A stretch of 21,210 bases of DNA. It comes from a virus. The notes beneath the pieces are model-generated. The model was given only the letters and a program-made list of their open reading frames with translations. It was not told where the DNA came from and made no database searches. Positions 13,846-21,188 of the stretch are shown one piece after another. Position 1 is the first letter of the stretch, and each line of letters begins with the position of its first letter. Made by a program: the position numbers and the translations under genes. The stretch spans positions 1-21,210 of IMG/VR virus record IMGVR_UViG_3300048672_000407. One strand, 5' to 3'.

Positions 13846-14102
13846 CTCTGCGTAAGCAGCACAAGACACGATACCTTGCACTGGACATGCAGAGGTTTAA
13901 ATACACTGGGTATTGGGAAGTCTATTACCAATCGTGCTAGTATACACCACGTGTGGTGGGCATTAGCTCCAGTAACGTGAAAGGGGTGCAATCCCCCATC
14001 TTTGTCAATAACAACTTATAATACCCCCTTGCTTTGAGACAACCCGTGGCATGTATAGAGATATGCATGCCACACATTTATTCAACTACAAACAACAATC
14101 TT
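13846..14102 (+). other. 257-nt structured leader region before the paralogue cluster
   Basis: No convincing gene is seen. Hairpins include CTCTGC...GCAGAG (13846-13894), ATTGG...CCAAT (13912-13932), GGGG-TGCAAT-CCCC (13983-13996) and GTGGCATG...CATGCCAC (14046-14073, 8 bp, 12-nt loop). The last lies 30 nt before the ATG of the first paralogue and could affect its translation. It shares GGGTATTGG and AAGGGGTG...ATCCCCC with the gap at 13149-13400. Confidence 0.5.
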
Positions 14103-14480
14103 ATGGACTTACTCAAGTTCGAACAACTACGGATGGGTAACATATACCTGATCCATGTAAAGCATTCAACACGTAGAATATTGTTCCAGTATACTGGTGG
14201 TACGCTCAACGGTGCTTGCATACTACCGCCTATGATAGTATTCGATGATAGTATAACAGAACCACCAACTGATTACTATATCATGCGAGAGGCAGGTATA
14301 TTAGATTTCAACGCATCTAGTAATCACTATCTTGCTGGCTATGAGGATGTATCTGGTACACTATTGGCTGAGTACTGCAGTAAATGCGTACGTAATGACT
14401 ACCGAGAGCTATGGGTAGAATTAGTAGAAAGGAATGCTGATTTCACACCCGATTATTCACACTATAATTTCATACCCTAA
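14103..14480 (+). CDS. Tandem paralogue 1 with conserved C-terminal tail (125 aa)
   Basis: Function unknown. It begins MDLLKFEQLRMGNIY, has the turn FQYTGGTLNG near residues 33-42, a later HYLAGYEDVSGTL segment and ends SHYNFIP right before the stop. The same start, YxGGTL turn and tail recur in the following genes, which shows they arose by duplication. The product is acidic, aromatic-rich and strand-rich, without signal peptide or membrane segment. The ATG at 14103 has the TTCAACTACAAACAACAATCTT leader; the frame open to 14034 is not used. The stop overlaps the next start (TAATG). Confidence 0.75.
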   Translation: MDLLKFEQLRMGNIYLIHVKHSTRRILFQYTGGTLNGACILPPMIVFDDSITEPPTDYYIMREAGILDFNASSNHYLAGYEDVSGTLLAEYCSKCVRNDYRELWVELVERNADFTPDYSHYNFIP

Positions 14481-14830
14481 TGGAACTACTTACAATCGAA
14501 GAACTACAGCTAGGTGTTATATACAAAGCTGTACGAGTTAATCCGTATAGTGCACCAGCAAAAGAAGATCTTGCTTATCTATTCGCATACAATGGTGGTA
14601 CCCTAACTAAAGATACTACTATTCTCTTCACGGATAGTGATGGAGAAAAGAGACAGCTCACTACTGGTAGTTTGAGTACGCTTGATAATAGCGCATTCAA
14701 AGGCTATCGACAAGCCAATACCCGCCAAATCACTCACTATTATGCTACAATGGGTATGGTATTTGATCACAATGCTATCAACAAGCAAATCGGCAATATT
14801 GCACATAACCACTTCAACTTCATGCCATGA
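14480..14830 (+). CDS. Tandem paralogue 2 with conserved C-terminal tail (116 aa)
   Basis: Clearly related to the gene before it: MELLTIEELQLGVIY against MDLLKFEQLRMGNIY, FAYNGGTLTK for the central turn, an AFKGYRQANTRQITHYY segment and the end NHFNFMP. It starts inside the previous stop (TAATG) and its own stop overlaps the next start (ATGA), so the genes are translated as a coupled chain. Unknown function; strand-rich, soluble. The close match at the N-terminus makes this pair the most recent duplication in the set. Confidence 0.75.
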   Translation: MELLTIEELQLGVIYKAVRVNPYSAPAKEDLAYLFAYNGGTLTKDTTILFTDSDGEKRQLTTGSLSTLDNSAFKGYRQANTRQITHYYATMGMVFDHNAINKQIGNIAHNHFNFMP

Positions 14831-15123
14831 CCTACACAGATCTAAAAGAACCTGGTTATTACACACGTGTATGGAGTGATGGCGACTGCTATGTATTCTA
14901 CTTCAATGGCAAATCAGCTAAGGACTTCAGAGAATCTAACACAGAGCGTGTATTAACAATACGCGGTAGTAGTGATATCAACTGGCGTGTAGTTACACAA
15001 GGTGAACGTGAAACGCTCATAGCAGCTGAGGTAGCAGCTCGAAAGAAAGCTGTTAGGGCTGAGCGTGAGTATCACAAACACACAGATAAATTATTACATT
15101 CACACTTCAATTTTATGCCGTGA
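14827..15123 (+). CDS. Tandem paralogue 3 with conserved C-terminal tail (98 aa)
   Basis: More diverged and shorter: MTYTDLKEPGYYTRV at the start, FYFNGKSAKD where the others have YxGGTL, then a helical basic stretch (ETLIAAEVAARKKAVRAEREYHKHTDK, about 66-90) not found in the other members, and the tail SHFNFMP. Keeping the tail while the middle changed suggests the tail has a function of its own. Coupled to both neighbours by ATGA and GTGA overlaps. Function unknown. Confidence 0.72.
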   Translation: MTYTDLKEPGYYTRVWSDGDCYVFYFNGKSAKDFRESNTERVLTIRGSSDINWRVVTQGERETLIAAEVAARKKAVRAEREYHKHTDKLLHSHFNFMP

Positions 15124-15509
15124 ACAAATTTGTTACAATCACAGACATCAAGCAACTGCAAGTCAATCATTGCTATGTATGCATACTCACTAATGAGGGT
15201 GGTGGCGTTATATTCTTGTATGATGGCGGTACATTGGATGGTTGGAGACAACACCGTCCAGATAGTACAGGCGTACCTCATCATAGTAACATCAAAGATG
15301 ATGGTGTAATGCTGAGTTTACGCCCTGCTGAAGCAGATTCATCTTACTCATTTAATGTACGCTCTAATTCTAGTGTACAAGGATATCGATACGCCAAAAT
15401 CTCAGAGCTAAAGGACTATATGGTATTACTACGTGAAGCTGGTATCTCAATAACTTCTGTGTATACTGAAGAGGACATCATTCCATCACACTTCAAATAC
15501 CTACCATGA
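15120..15509 (+). CDS. Tandem paralogue 4 with conserved C-terminal tail (129 aa)
   Basis: The start codon is probably GTG at 15120, overlapping the previous stop as GTGA. The product has VTITDIKQLQVNHCY near the start, FLYDGGTLDG for the central turn, a SSVQGYRYAKISELKDYMVLLREAGI segment matching the GYxxA region of paralogues 1 and 2, and the tail SHFKYLP. Its stop overlaps the next ATG (ATGA). No family known. No other nearby start would keep the shared N-terminal part. Confidence 0.72.
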   Translation: MNKFVTITDIKQLQVNHCYVCILTNEGGGVIFLYDGGTLDGWRQHRPDSTGVPHHSNIKDDGVMLSLRPAEADSSYSFNVRSNSSVQGYRYAKISELKDYMVLLREAGISITSVYTEEDIIPSHFKYLP

Positions 15510-15820
15510 GACTAGATGAACTGAAAATCGGCAAAGTATACCGTGGCACGCAGCTATACAATGGTGAGACAATCTCTAATATCATAGTGCAATACACTGG
15601 CATGATTCATAATACTGTAGGAGAACTCTCTTATGTATGGTGTGCTATTGATCAAACAATGGAATACAGAACCTACGGTGGGGTTACTATGGAGTATCAT
15701 GAAATAACTGAAGGCAGTACCACATGGGAAGAATACTTCAGTCGTATATTGCAATACGATTTCGAACATGGATCACCAATACAACGCACACAACGAACAG
15801 AACATTTTCCAATTTACTAA
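15506..15820 (+). CDS. Tandem paralogue 5, tail degraded (104 aa)
   Basis: Begins MRLDELKIGKVYRGTQ, the same L-x-x-L-x-x-G-x-x-Y opening as paralogues 1 and 2, followed by VQYTGMIHNT in place of YxGGTL. The C-terminus is EHFPIY, which keeps only the HF of the H-[FY]-[NK]-[FY]-[IML]-P tail. It is the last of the coupled chain; the next gene has its own leader. Function unknown. The relation to the other four rests mainly on the N-terminal pattern and gene position. Confidence 0.68.
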   Translation: MRLDELKIGKVYRGTQLYNGETISNIIVQYTGMIHNTVGELSYVWCAIDQTMEYRTYGGVTMEYHEITEGSTTWEEYFSRILQYDFEHGSPIQRTQRTEHFPIY

Positions 15821-15832
15821 ATCAAATACAAC

Positions 15833-16300
15833 ATGGCAAAGCCAACTAAGACTACTACCGCAGTAGCAATTATCAAAGGTGCATCACCAGTGGAAACAAT
15901 CAACAAACTGGATGTAGCACTTGCCAAACTGAAGCGTATTCAGGAAACACCGTGGAAAACATCAGGCGAATTCGGTGATGGTTTCCCTAACATCAAGAAC
16001 GTACAGAACGTAGGTCTTGGTGTATTGATCCGTATGTCAGCAGCTTCTGCTACACGTGCGGATTTGTATCATAAAGCAGCAGCGAGATTGGGTAAGACCA
16101 GCTATCCTGCATTTGAGATCAGTGGATTCGATGATGATGCATGGCAACATGACATCAAATTGCGTATGGATATTGATGAGCAAGAGAATGTGTATACTAC
16201 GCTTAAAGGCTTCCAAGAGAAAATGAGCAAATTCTTGTCTGAAGCAGACCAAAAAGAGCAGCTCGAAAACGAGATTAACCAATTCATGGCTAACTTGTAA
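15833..16300 (+). CDS. Unknown 155-aa protein with C-terminal coiled coil
   Basis: Preceded by AATCAAATACAAC and an ATG. Residues 1-20 are Thr/Lys/Ala-rich; the middle (about 25-110) is a mixed domain containing GEFGDGFPNIKNVQNVGLGVLIRMSAAS and FEISGFDDDAWQHDIKLRMDIDEQ; residues 117-155 are strongly helical and charged (LKGFQEKMSKFLSEADQKEQLENEINQFMANL), likely a coiled coil for self-association. No family recognised. A hairpin follows at 16307-16341, so it may end a transcript. Confidence 0.8.
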   Translation: MAKPTKTTTAVAIIKGASPVETINKLDVALAKLKRIQETPWKTSGEFGDGFPNIKNVQNVGLGVLIRMSAASATRADLYHKAAARLGKTSYPAFEISGFDDDAWQHDIKLRMDIDEQENVYTTLKGFQEKMSKFLSEADQKEQLENEINQFMANL

Positions 16301-18970: not shown

Positions 18971-19387
18971 ATGAGCGGAAAATTAGTGTGCATTACTTGT
19001 GGCACACGCACAAATTCACATAACTGCTACAGATGCGGTGAACAAAAACGCTTCAGTGATAAGGTAGCATGGGTAGATATCGAAGGGCCACTGGCCAATA
19101 TCGATTATCTCGCTGCTATGGGCTTTCATGCACACTTCTCTTCTGAAGATAAGCTGAAGGACAGGATACACCCGTGGAATCTACCACATATCATGCCCTG
19201 GTTCTCACGAGCTAATCAACACCTGTGGTTCACTAAAGCACAAGGACATTGGTATATCGGTACATTTAAAGATGGATTTCTCCACAATGTGTACCGTAAT
19301 ACTGAATTATTCACCCTATTAAACGAGTACAATGCTCAAGAACGAGATCTCACACGAGAAAGCACTAGCGTTCCTGTTGGCAGGTAA
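18971..19387 (+). CDS. Protein with N-terminal zinc ribbon (138 aa)
   Basis: Residues 6-22 hold CITC and CYRCG, a four-Cys ribbon. The rest (WVDIEGPLANIDYLAAMGFHAHFSSEDKLKDRIHPWNLPHIMPWF...) has many Trp, His and Phe and looks like a compact domain; QHLWFTKAQGHWYIGTFKDGFLHN is strand-like. Family not known. The ATG follows AATCAACTACAACGA. The last 56 nt overlap the DUF6011-like gene in another frame, showing dense packing. Confidence 0.75.
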   Translation: MSGKLVCITCGTRTNSHNCYRCGEQKRFSDKVAWVDIEGPLANIDYLAAMGFHAHFSSEDKLKDRIHPWNLPHIMPWFSRANQHLWFTKAQGHWYIGTFKDGFLHNVYRNTELFTLLNEYNAQERDLTRESTSVPVGR

Positions 19388-19751
19388 GTGTTACTTCATA
19401 CTATTCACTACTGCACCGTTGAAAGCTTCTCTTGACCATTTGACTTATCAGATATACGGCAAGCCATCATCAAGATGGTCTGTATATTATCAAGGGCATC
19501 AGATTGGTGCTATCATGATTACATCTACTGCGTACACATTCGAAAGTATGCGTACTGTGCACATAGGTGCAGAACGTTTAGCGTTAGCACAGCGTAGTAT
19601 AGCATACATGCTGCACCAGTTACAAAAAGGAACACTGCCTGACCATTTCCATATCCTACATGAAGGACGATGTGGTAAATGTGCCAGGCCATTAACTGAC
19701 CCTGTCTCTATCGAACTTGGCTTAGGCCCTGCTTGTGGTGGCAGAGTATAA
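19332..19751 (+). CDS. DUF6011-like zinc-binding protein (139 aa)
   Basis: The C-terminus EGRCGKCARPLTDPVSIELGLGPACGGRV carries the pattern C-x2-C-x-R-P-L-x(3)-S-x(4)-G-x-G-P-x-C-x(2) of DUF6011-type domains, common at the ends of phage and plasmid proteins and probably zinc-binding. The N-terminal 100 residues contain a strand-rich part (KCYFILFTTAPLKASLDHLTYQIYGKPSSRWSVYYQGHQIGAIM) and a helix. It begins inside the previous gene (AAACGAGTACAATG). Function unknown; nucleic-acid binding is the usual guess. Confidence 0.78.
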   Translation: MLKNEISHEKALAFLLAGKCYFILFTTAPLKASLDHLTYQIYGKPSSRWSVYYQGHQIGAIMITSTAYTFESMRTVHIGAERLALAQRSIAYMLHQLQKGTLPDHFHILHEGRCGKCARPLTDPVSIELGLGPACGGRV

Positions 19752-19761
19752 ATACTTCGGT

Positions 19762-19998
19762 ATGATCACTATTATTGAATCGGGCATGTGTACCTGTGAT
19801 ACTGCACCCATGGGACATGGTGGATTAGAAGGCTTTGATGAGAAATCATCCTACTTCTATGAGCTATGTGCTGATGAGAATACTAAATGGTACCGTGTCT
19901 ATCATGACACTGTCGACGTTTCGAGGGAAACCTGTAGCGTTGGCATATTTAAACAACACTTTAAACTACAACAAAATGGCAACGACCGCCAAATCTAA
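19762..19998 (+). CDS. Unknown 78-aa protein
   Basis: The ATG at 19762 follows the DUF6011-like gene by 10 nt; the frame is open to a GTG at 19735 that would overlap it. The product (MITIIESGMCTCDTAPMGHGGLEGFDEKSSYFYELCADENTKWYRVYHD...) is acidic and has four Cys, two as CTC, with no clear zinc-binding spacing. It overlaps the following gene by 23 nt. Not recognised. Confidence 0.55.
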   Translation: MITIIESGMCTCDTAPMGHGGLEGFDEKSSYFYELCADENTKWYRVYHDTVDVSRETCSVGIFKQHFKLQQNGNDRQI

Positions 19999-20582: not shown

Positions 20583-21188
20583 ATGGCAACAAAAACTACA
20601 GTTACGGTTAAAGAACTAGATATTCGAACCGTAGTTATTCCTATTAAGGGTAGAAGTCCCTTGATAGTGAACCAATTCAATAAAAAGGCTAGAGATCTGA
20701 TGCTTGATAAGCAAACAGGTAAAGCTACCAATAAGAAGCATGCTATAAAGGTCCCAGAAAATGACTATGAGGGTTCTAAGCATATTAGTACTGAGGGTTG
20801 GGAAGGTTTTCCAGCAGCAGGCTTTAAAGGTGCTATGATACGCGCTGCTAAGAGTTTAGGAATGGTAATGACTGATGTCAGAACTGCTTTCTTTATACAG
20901 GCCGATGACGAACTTACACAGCTTGTTCGTATCTATGGAGAATCCCGTATGCGTGAGGATATGGTACGTGTAGGAATGGGTACAGCAGATATTCGATTTA
21001 GAGCAGAATACCCACAATGGGAAGCTAATCTAACTGTTGAATTTAATGAAGGGAATATCAGTATAGACCAGATCTATCAGCTTGTAAAAATGGCTGGATA
21101 TGGTAGTGGTATTGGTGAAATGCGCCCAGAGAAAGGTAAATTTAACTATGGTCGTTTTGTATTAGCACAAGAAGTTCAAACCACTTAA
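20583..21188 (+). CDS. RAMP-like phage protein (201 aa), Cas5/6/7-type resemblance
   Basis: The protein belongs to a family I recognise from many phages, usually unnamed: PIKGRSPLIVNQF at 20-32, EGFPAAGFKGAMIRAAKSL at about 74-92, RMREDMVRVGMGTADIRFRAEYPQW at 122-146, and the closing GYGSGIGEMRPEKGKFNYGRF at 172-192. The last is like the Gly-rich loop of RAMP (Cas5, Cas6, Cas7) proteins, and the FPxxxFKGAMxxAA segment recalls the corresponding helix of Cas7-type subunits. It might bind RNA or single-stranded DNA, or coat nucleic acid. No Cas partner is visible in the window. The leader CAATCAATTACAAACA fits. The next gene begins 2 nt after its stop. Confidence 0.75.
   Translation: MATKTTVTVKELDIRTVVIPIKGRSPLIVNQFNKKARDLMLDKQTGKATNKKHAIKVPENDYEGSKHISTEGWEGFPAAGFKGAMIRAAKSLGMVMTDVRTAFFIQADDELTQLVRIYGESRMREDMVRVGMGTADIRFRAEYPQWEANLTVEFNEGNISIDQIYQLVKMAGYGSGIGEMRPEKGKFNYGRFVLAQEVQTT

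Follow-up and report, generated by a model that had tools for sequence, protein, structure and literature searches.

Overlapping small genes with a common C-terminal peptide in a divergent crAss-like phage

Four adjacent small proteins encoded in the genome of an uncultured crAss-like phage end in closely similar peptides placed immediately before the stop codon. As judged from codon comparisons among these four tails of a single phage, the peptide has demonstrably been kept by purifying selection. We put our confidence somewhat short of even that the genes form a lineage-specific, tandemly duplicated set whose products have diverging bodies and a C-terminal linear motif docking on a common partner. 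The cassette is genuine, a puzzling peculiarity of a single phage.

The phage and its cassette

The stretch of DNA analysed here (the window) is the complete virus record IMGVR_UViG_3300048672_000407, 21,210 bases in length. Judged by its genes, the record is a 21-kb piece of the genome of an uncultured crAss-like phage. Genes for the capsid, portal and large terminase lie on the minus strand, and each has a match among the crAss-like PHROGs, the E-values ranging from 1e-66 to 1e-93 (PHROG 11589, major head protein, 3.7e-66; PHROG 6547, portal, 3.7e-73; PHROG 6681, large terminase, 1.9e-93), and these three matches place the record in the Crassvirales. The large terminase aligns with those of named crAss-like phages over more than 90% of its residues but at only ca. 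31% identity, and its identity to the terminases of the nearest IMG/VR contigs does not exceed 52%; the lineage is thus a divergent one.

From ca. 12.9 kb to the end of the window, the likely genes are short and are located on the plus strand. The cassette (Table 1) is thus encoded on the strand opposite to the capsid, portal and terminase genes. In phages crAss001 and phi14:2, transcription begins with the block located opposite the structural genes (PMC10136315). By analogy, the short plus-strand genes, the cassette included, are probably early or middle genes that are expressed before the structural genes.

A first-pass annotation of the window had described five small coupled frames at positions 14103–15820 of the plus strand, and the overlaps TAATG, ATGA, GTGA and ATGA were found as claimed. 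Since the genes overlap stop to start, their translation is probably coupled. An in-frame TTG codon located upstream of ORF1, at position 14034, would extend its product by 23 amino acids.

Table 1. Coordinates of the cassette genes, of the tail-coding stretches and of the leader (positions in the window)
Feature	Position	Strand	Description
Leader	14083..14102	+	A/C-rich, CAACTACAAACAACAATCTT; precedes ORF1 start; 9/11 matches to consensus CAACTACAACA
ORF1	14103..14480	+	125 aa; end SHYNFIP; firm paralogue
ORF1 tail HYNFIP	14460..14477	+	
ORF2	14480..14830	+	116 aa; end NHFNFMP; firm paralogue; start overlaps ORF1 stop (TAATG)
ORF2 tail HFNFMP	14810..14827	+	
ORF3	14827..15123	+	98 aa; end SHFNFMP; linked by tail only, body homology undetected
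ORF3 tail HFNFMP	15103..15120	+	
ORF4	15120..15509	+	129 aa; GTG start; end SHFKYLP; firm paralogue
ORF4 tail HFKYLP	15489..15506	+	
ORF5	15506..15820	+	104 aa; N-terminal LDELKIGKVY; no tail (end EHFPIY); marginal paralogue

The sequence YxGGTL, reported to be common to ORFs 1, 2 and 4, was present in all three (YTGGTL, YNGGTL and YDGGTL), and the four tails were confirmed at the ends of ORFs 1–4. The N-terminal motif had been described as L-x-x-L-x-x-G-x-x-Y and assigned to ORFs 1, 2 and 5; these three ORFs do contain it, but so does ORF4, and the literal L-x-x-L fits ORF5 only. We have rewritten the motif as [LIF]xxLxx[GN]xxY (FEQLRMGNIY, IEELQLGVIY, IKQLQVNHCY and LDELKIGKVY in ORFs 1, 2, 4 and 5, respectively).

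Some 255 nt directly upstream of the cassette (13846–14102) contain no likely gene. ARAGORN detected no tRNA in this region, and the predicted RNA fold of a part of it was no better than that of shuffled sequences (z -0.15). A sub-threshold tRNA-like Rfam match (E 0.49) is located at 13941–14016; the Rfam and tRNA scans returned nothing reliable.

The tail is conserved as a peptide

The pattern H-[FY]-[NK]-[FY]-[IML]-P is expected with a probability of ca. 1.5e-7 per C-terminus from the residue composition of this phage; it was chosen after inspection of the data, and four adjacent hits still leave an ample margin. The last eight residues were also compared in 14,386 pairs, namely, all same-strand ORF pairs of the window and of related phage loci whose members are located within 8 kb of each other. 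The six tail pairs among ORFs 1–4 scored 47, 37, 34, 28, 25 and 24 and were all among the top seven of the 14,386, the best pair from outside the cassette (25) being an acidic run in locus L005. No further occurrence of the motif was found in any frame of the window. Together, the low probability, the ranking and the occurrence at a single site rule out a chance origin of the tail.

The proposal of the first-pass annotation that the peptide rather than the DNA is under selection is borne out by codon usage. Of 21 codon pairs that encode the same residue in different tails (the pairs are not independent), 12 are identical, which is at the level expected from random synonymous choice given the usage of the phage (10.2 ± 2.4). 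Nucleotide changes in the tails replace aromatic residues with aromatic and aliphatic with aliphatic ones. When the observed number of substitutions was introduced at random, the residue-class pattern, which was defined from the same data, was kept in all three other tails in none of 200,000 trials. Since the third codon positions look randomised, selection appears to act on the peptide and not on the DNA.

Evidence on paralogy among the cassette proteins

Paralogy was tested with the tails removed by searching a profile of two members against the held-out third one and repeating the search with 2,000 shuffles. ORFs 1, 2 and 4 detected each other, with none of the 2000 shuffles scoring as high, and pairwise alignments agreed with this result. 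For ORF3, 334 of the 2000 shuffles scored equally high, i.e., no homology of its body was detectable, while the similarity of the ORF5 body was marginal (28 of 2000). The cassette had been described as five paralogues; this description holds for ORFs 1, 2 and 4, while ORF3 is linked to them by its tail only and ORF5 is a marginal case. Identity between the cassette paralogues is about 25%. The bodies had also been described as varying, a description that is not established: three of them are homologous and have two more conserved blocks, [IF]xxLxx[GN]xxY and FxYxGGTL, in common. The linkers that precede the tail are unequal in length and sequence between the ORFs.

Direct repeats spaced by 350, 293 and 386 nt bridge the stop/start junctions, as expected of tandem duplication of a unit that contains the overlap. 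Tail and body are separable, since the tail of ORF3 follows a body with no recognisable similarity, and ORF5 combines weak similarity of the body with the absence of a tail. This separation is the best evidence that the tail may be a module; ORF3 may, however, merely have diverged too far.

Search for relatives

The first-pass annotation knew of no described family with this layout, and no Pfam, PHROG, NCBIfam, PADLOC or PDB family was matched. The best matches of the cassette ORFs in Pfam, PHROG and NCBIfam were local (E 0.001–0.1) and no family fitted, and a PDB profile search with the cassette proteins gave nothing below E 0.35. The sole PADLOC match was a local one of ORF2 to the 678-aa DruF model (E 0.015); PADLOC covers defence systems, and its result says nothing on counter-defence function. 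Residues 25–93 of ORF5 matched the conjugation family TrbJ (NCBIfam NF010452, E 1e-4) and, over the same stretch, PHROG 20348 (E 1e-3). With 21 bits against a cut-off of 286, the TrbJ match was judged to be a local resemblance and was rejected.

Scans of IMG/VR with ORF4 alone and with the profile of ORFs 1, 2 and 4, and of GTDB genomes with the same profile, revealed no confirmed relative. Two tail patterns retrieved two and five stretches from IMG/VR, none of which ends a convincing gene of the cassette kind. The IMG/VR and GTDB scans used short near-exact peptide patterns, which distant relatives would escape. A tblastn search of named phages with each of the five ORFs yielded chance matches only; the one that touched the ORF1 tail region was inside an unrelated 420-aa ORF resembling an aminotransferase.

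Related phages were searched as well. No match to the five ORFs was found in related phage loci by tblastn, and when 2,808 ORFs were searched locally with a profile, none from outside the window matched below E 0.5. A six-frame search of five related records with the A1 profile also returned nothing, a result of little weight since there was no positive control. A one-mismatch match to the tail in the genome of L014 turned out to lie inside the terminase. In a 95.7-kb relative (terminase 51% identical), the corresponding region, which runs from the divergence point to the homologues of the genes at 19332 and 19735, is occupied by other small genes and has no cassette. No syntenic contigs were found when the adjacent gene 15833–16300 was used as a probe. 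The first-pass annotation had suggested looking for the tail in related phages; since the whole cassette is absent from the nearest ones, its idea of the tail is neither confirmed nor refuted. As far as the searched collections show, the cassette appears restricted to this phage lineage. We also found no description in the literature of a common C-terminal tail in phage paralogues.

One 85-aa protein of a relative (L008 5857–6114, equal to L020 13608–13865, minus strand) has an order of motifs like that of the cassette bodies (EEIRIGETYEI, NGTET and WGYTRKDLLKFL). Its profile match is not significant (E 4–14), and it has no tail.

Predicted structure and proposed mode of action

AlphaFold models were built for ORF2 and ORF4 only, from the alignment of five sequences, and were of low confidence throughout (mean pLDDT 44.9 and pTM 0.39 for ORF2; 46.7 and 0.38 for ORF4). 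At this confidence, both models contain N-terminal strands and a helix that follows the GYR block. In both models, confidence is at or close to its minimum in the last 20–25 residues (26–36 in the tail region), which does no more than suggest that the tail is flexible. A search of BFVD for folds similar to the ORF2 model yielded no usable match, and none below E 0.15.

We propose the following scheme. An old tandem duplication would have made the set; this origin is shown for ORFs 1, 2 and 4, probable for ORF3 and possible for ORF5. The coupled block would, as its sequence indicates, probably be translated from a single leader in front of ORF1. Each protein would have a small beta-plus-helix body, which has probably diverged freely, followed by the flexible C-terminal motif [SN]-H-[FY]-[NK]-[FY]-[IML]-P-COOH. 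The motif would most likely dock each protein on one common partner, of either phage or host, and the diverged bodies could then have distinct though related tasks, perhaps directed at host factors in the early phase of infection. The first-pass annotation had suggested a docking, assembly or degradation signal and different host targets, all of which are conjectural. Some observations count against docking: the last gene, ORF5, has no tail, no homologue was found in any of the searched collections, and with models of such low confidence the tail may well be ordered. A counter-defence role of the cassette is only suggested by its genomic position and orphan status. Should the selected common peptide be such a handle, the tail could serve as a bait for the common partner, and the bodies could be tested for different targets.

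The main alternative, which we hold to be possible though doubtful, gives the tail no separate partner: it would simply be the part of the fold that is conserved best, and would pack back on the body or form the oligomer interface. The cassette would then be one more ordinary duplicated orphan family. A small family at 25% identity normally retains a few such blocks, ORFs 1, 2 and 4 do have the two others described above, and ends composed of aromatic and hydrophobic residues and proline are plausible packing elements. It is harder to explain in this way why the tail of ORF3 is nearly unchanged while its body is undetectable, and why the linkers vary. The models also show no confident structure in the tail, although their quality is too low to decide.

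The docking proposal also has a bolder form, which we consider unlikely. Here the tail is a portable peptide by which one phage partner recruits duplicating small effectors whose bodies evolve freely, and in ORF3 it has been grafted onto a different body. Such a peptide would be the C-terminal equivalent of T4's capsid targeting sequence, acting outside the late strand.

C-terminal degrons with hydrophobic final residues are known for ClpXP and Tsp, and the tail stands exactly at the end of all four proteins. It could therefore act as a degron that shortens the life of all of them and limits their action to early infection. We judge this improbable: the tail presumably bears no evident resemblance to ssrA or MuA-type tags, of which a C-terminal proline is, to our knowledge, atypical, and there is no sign of turnover in the sequence.

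Comparison with known systems

Two precedents come closest: in kind, the short orphan genes that occur in blocks in crAss-like phages, and in logic, the capsid targeting sequence of T4. The orphan blocks are a recognised puzzle of crAss-like phages; in Crassvirales, their genes are suspected, though not confirmed, to be counter-defence genes (PMC10136315). The cassette resembles them in being composed of short orphan genes with no detected homologues; it differs in having at least three tandem paralogues, coupled frames and a common C-terminal peptide, and the PADLOC search turned up no counter-defence match for it.

As in the T4 internal proteins IPI, IPII and IPIII, the terminal peptide is better kept than the bodies of the small proteins, and the bodies may have a role in an arms race (PMC9026906). 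However, the T4 sequence is N-terminal, is cleaved and serves late head assembly (PMC9026906), whereas the cassette tail consists of the last C-terminal residues and its genes lie opposite the late strand. By its C-terminal position and by its strand, opposite to the structural genes, the tail falls outside the T4-type capsid targeting sequences. The same differences bear on a reading that we find very improbable, namely, that the tail sorts cargo into the virion, similar to the T4 sequence but C-terminal. In T4-like phages, one short common peptide does direct proteins whose bodies have diverged to the head (PMC9026906), and crAss-like phages package and eject cargo proteins (PMC10136315). 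Yet in crAss001, transcription of most cargo genes is late and accompanies that of the structural genes (PMC10136315), to which the cassette is opposite.

Amplification of a segment with the T4 gene tifA under ToxN pressure (PMC9391042) is likewise an adaptation in which a small phage gene gains tandem copies. The tifA copies are recent and identical, whereas those of the cassette are old, ca. 25% identical, and each has its own sequence.

Translation starts and other plus-strand genes

The A/C-rich leader CAACTACAACA is located directly 5′ of the start codon in most uncoupled plus-strand genes between 12950 and 20582 (examples are at 15824, 16358, 17362, 18555, 18960 and 19964). With at most one mismatch allowed, the window contains nine matches versus 2.5 expected, and none of 100 shuffles had as many. 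The corresponding region of the relative L036 has none. The host phylum lacks Shine-Dalgarno sequences and prefers adenine upstream of the start codon (PMC6847099). The leader may be this phage's own non-Shine-Dalgarno start signal. Among the cassette genes, only ORF1 is preceded by it.

A very slim chance is left to the reading that the conserved stretch works in the mRNA, where it would signal the start of the overlapping gene that follows, with the peptide as a by-product: four of four tail genes overlap the next start, ORF5 has neither overlap nor tail, and CACTTCAAC is slightly similar to the leader, but the four tail-coding stretches score 6, 8, 6 and 6 of 11, like coding DNA generally (6 is reached by half of coding positions, while true leaders score 7–11), their third positions are as random as synonymous choice permits, and the tail is not encoded at the window's other stop/start overlaps, all of which disfavours a start signal in DNA or RNA.

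Of the plus-strand genes, only two adjoining small ones at 19332–19998 have homologues in the 95.7-kb relative (L021 1071–1873); the first of the two has a Cys-rich end (CGKC...CGG) that resembles a zinc-binding site. A 201-aa protein encoded at 20583–21188 is 65–69% identical to proteins in six IMG/VR contigs, which have no other tested gene in common with the window, except for a weak local match to positions 41–964 in two of the six. Since this protein is far more conserved than the core genes of the phage, it was probably exchanged horizontally.
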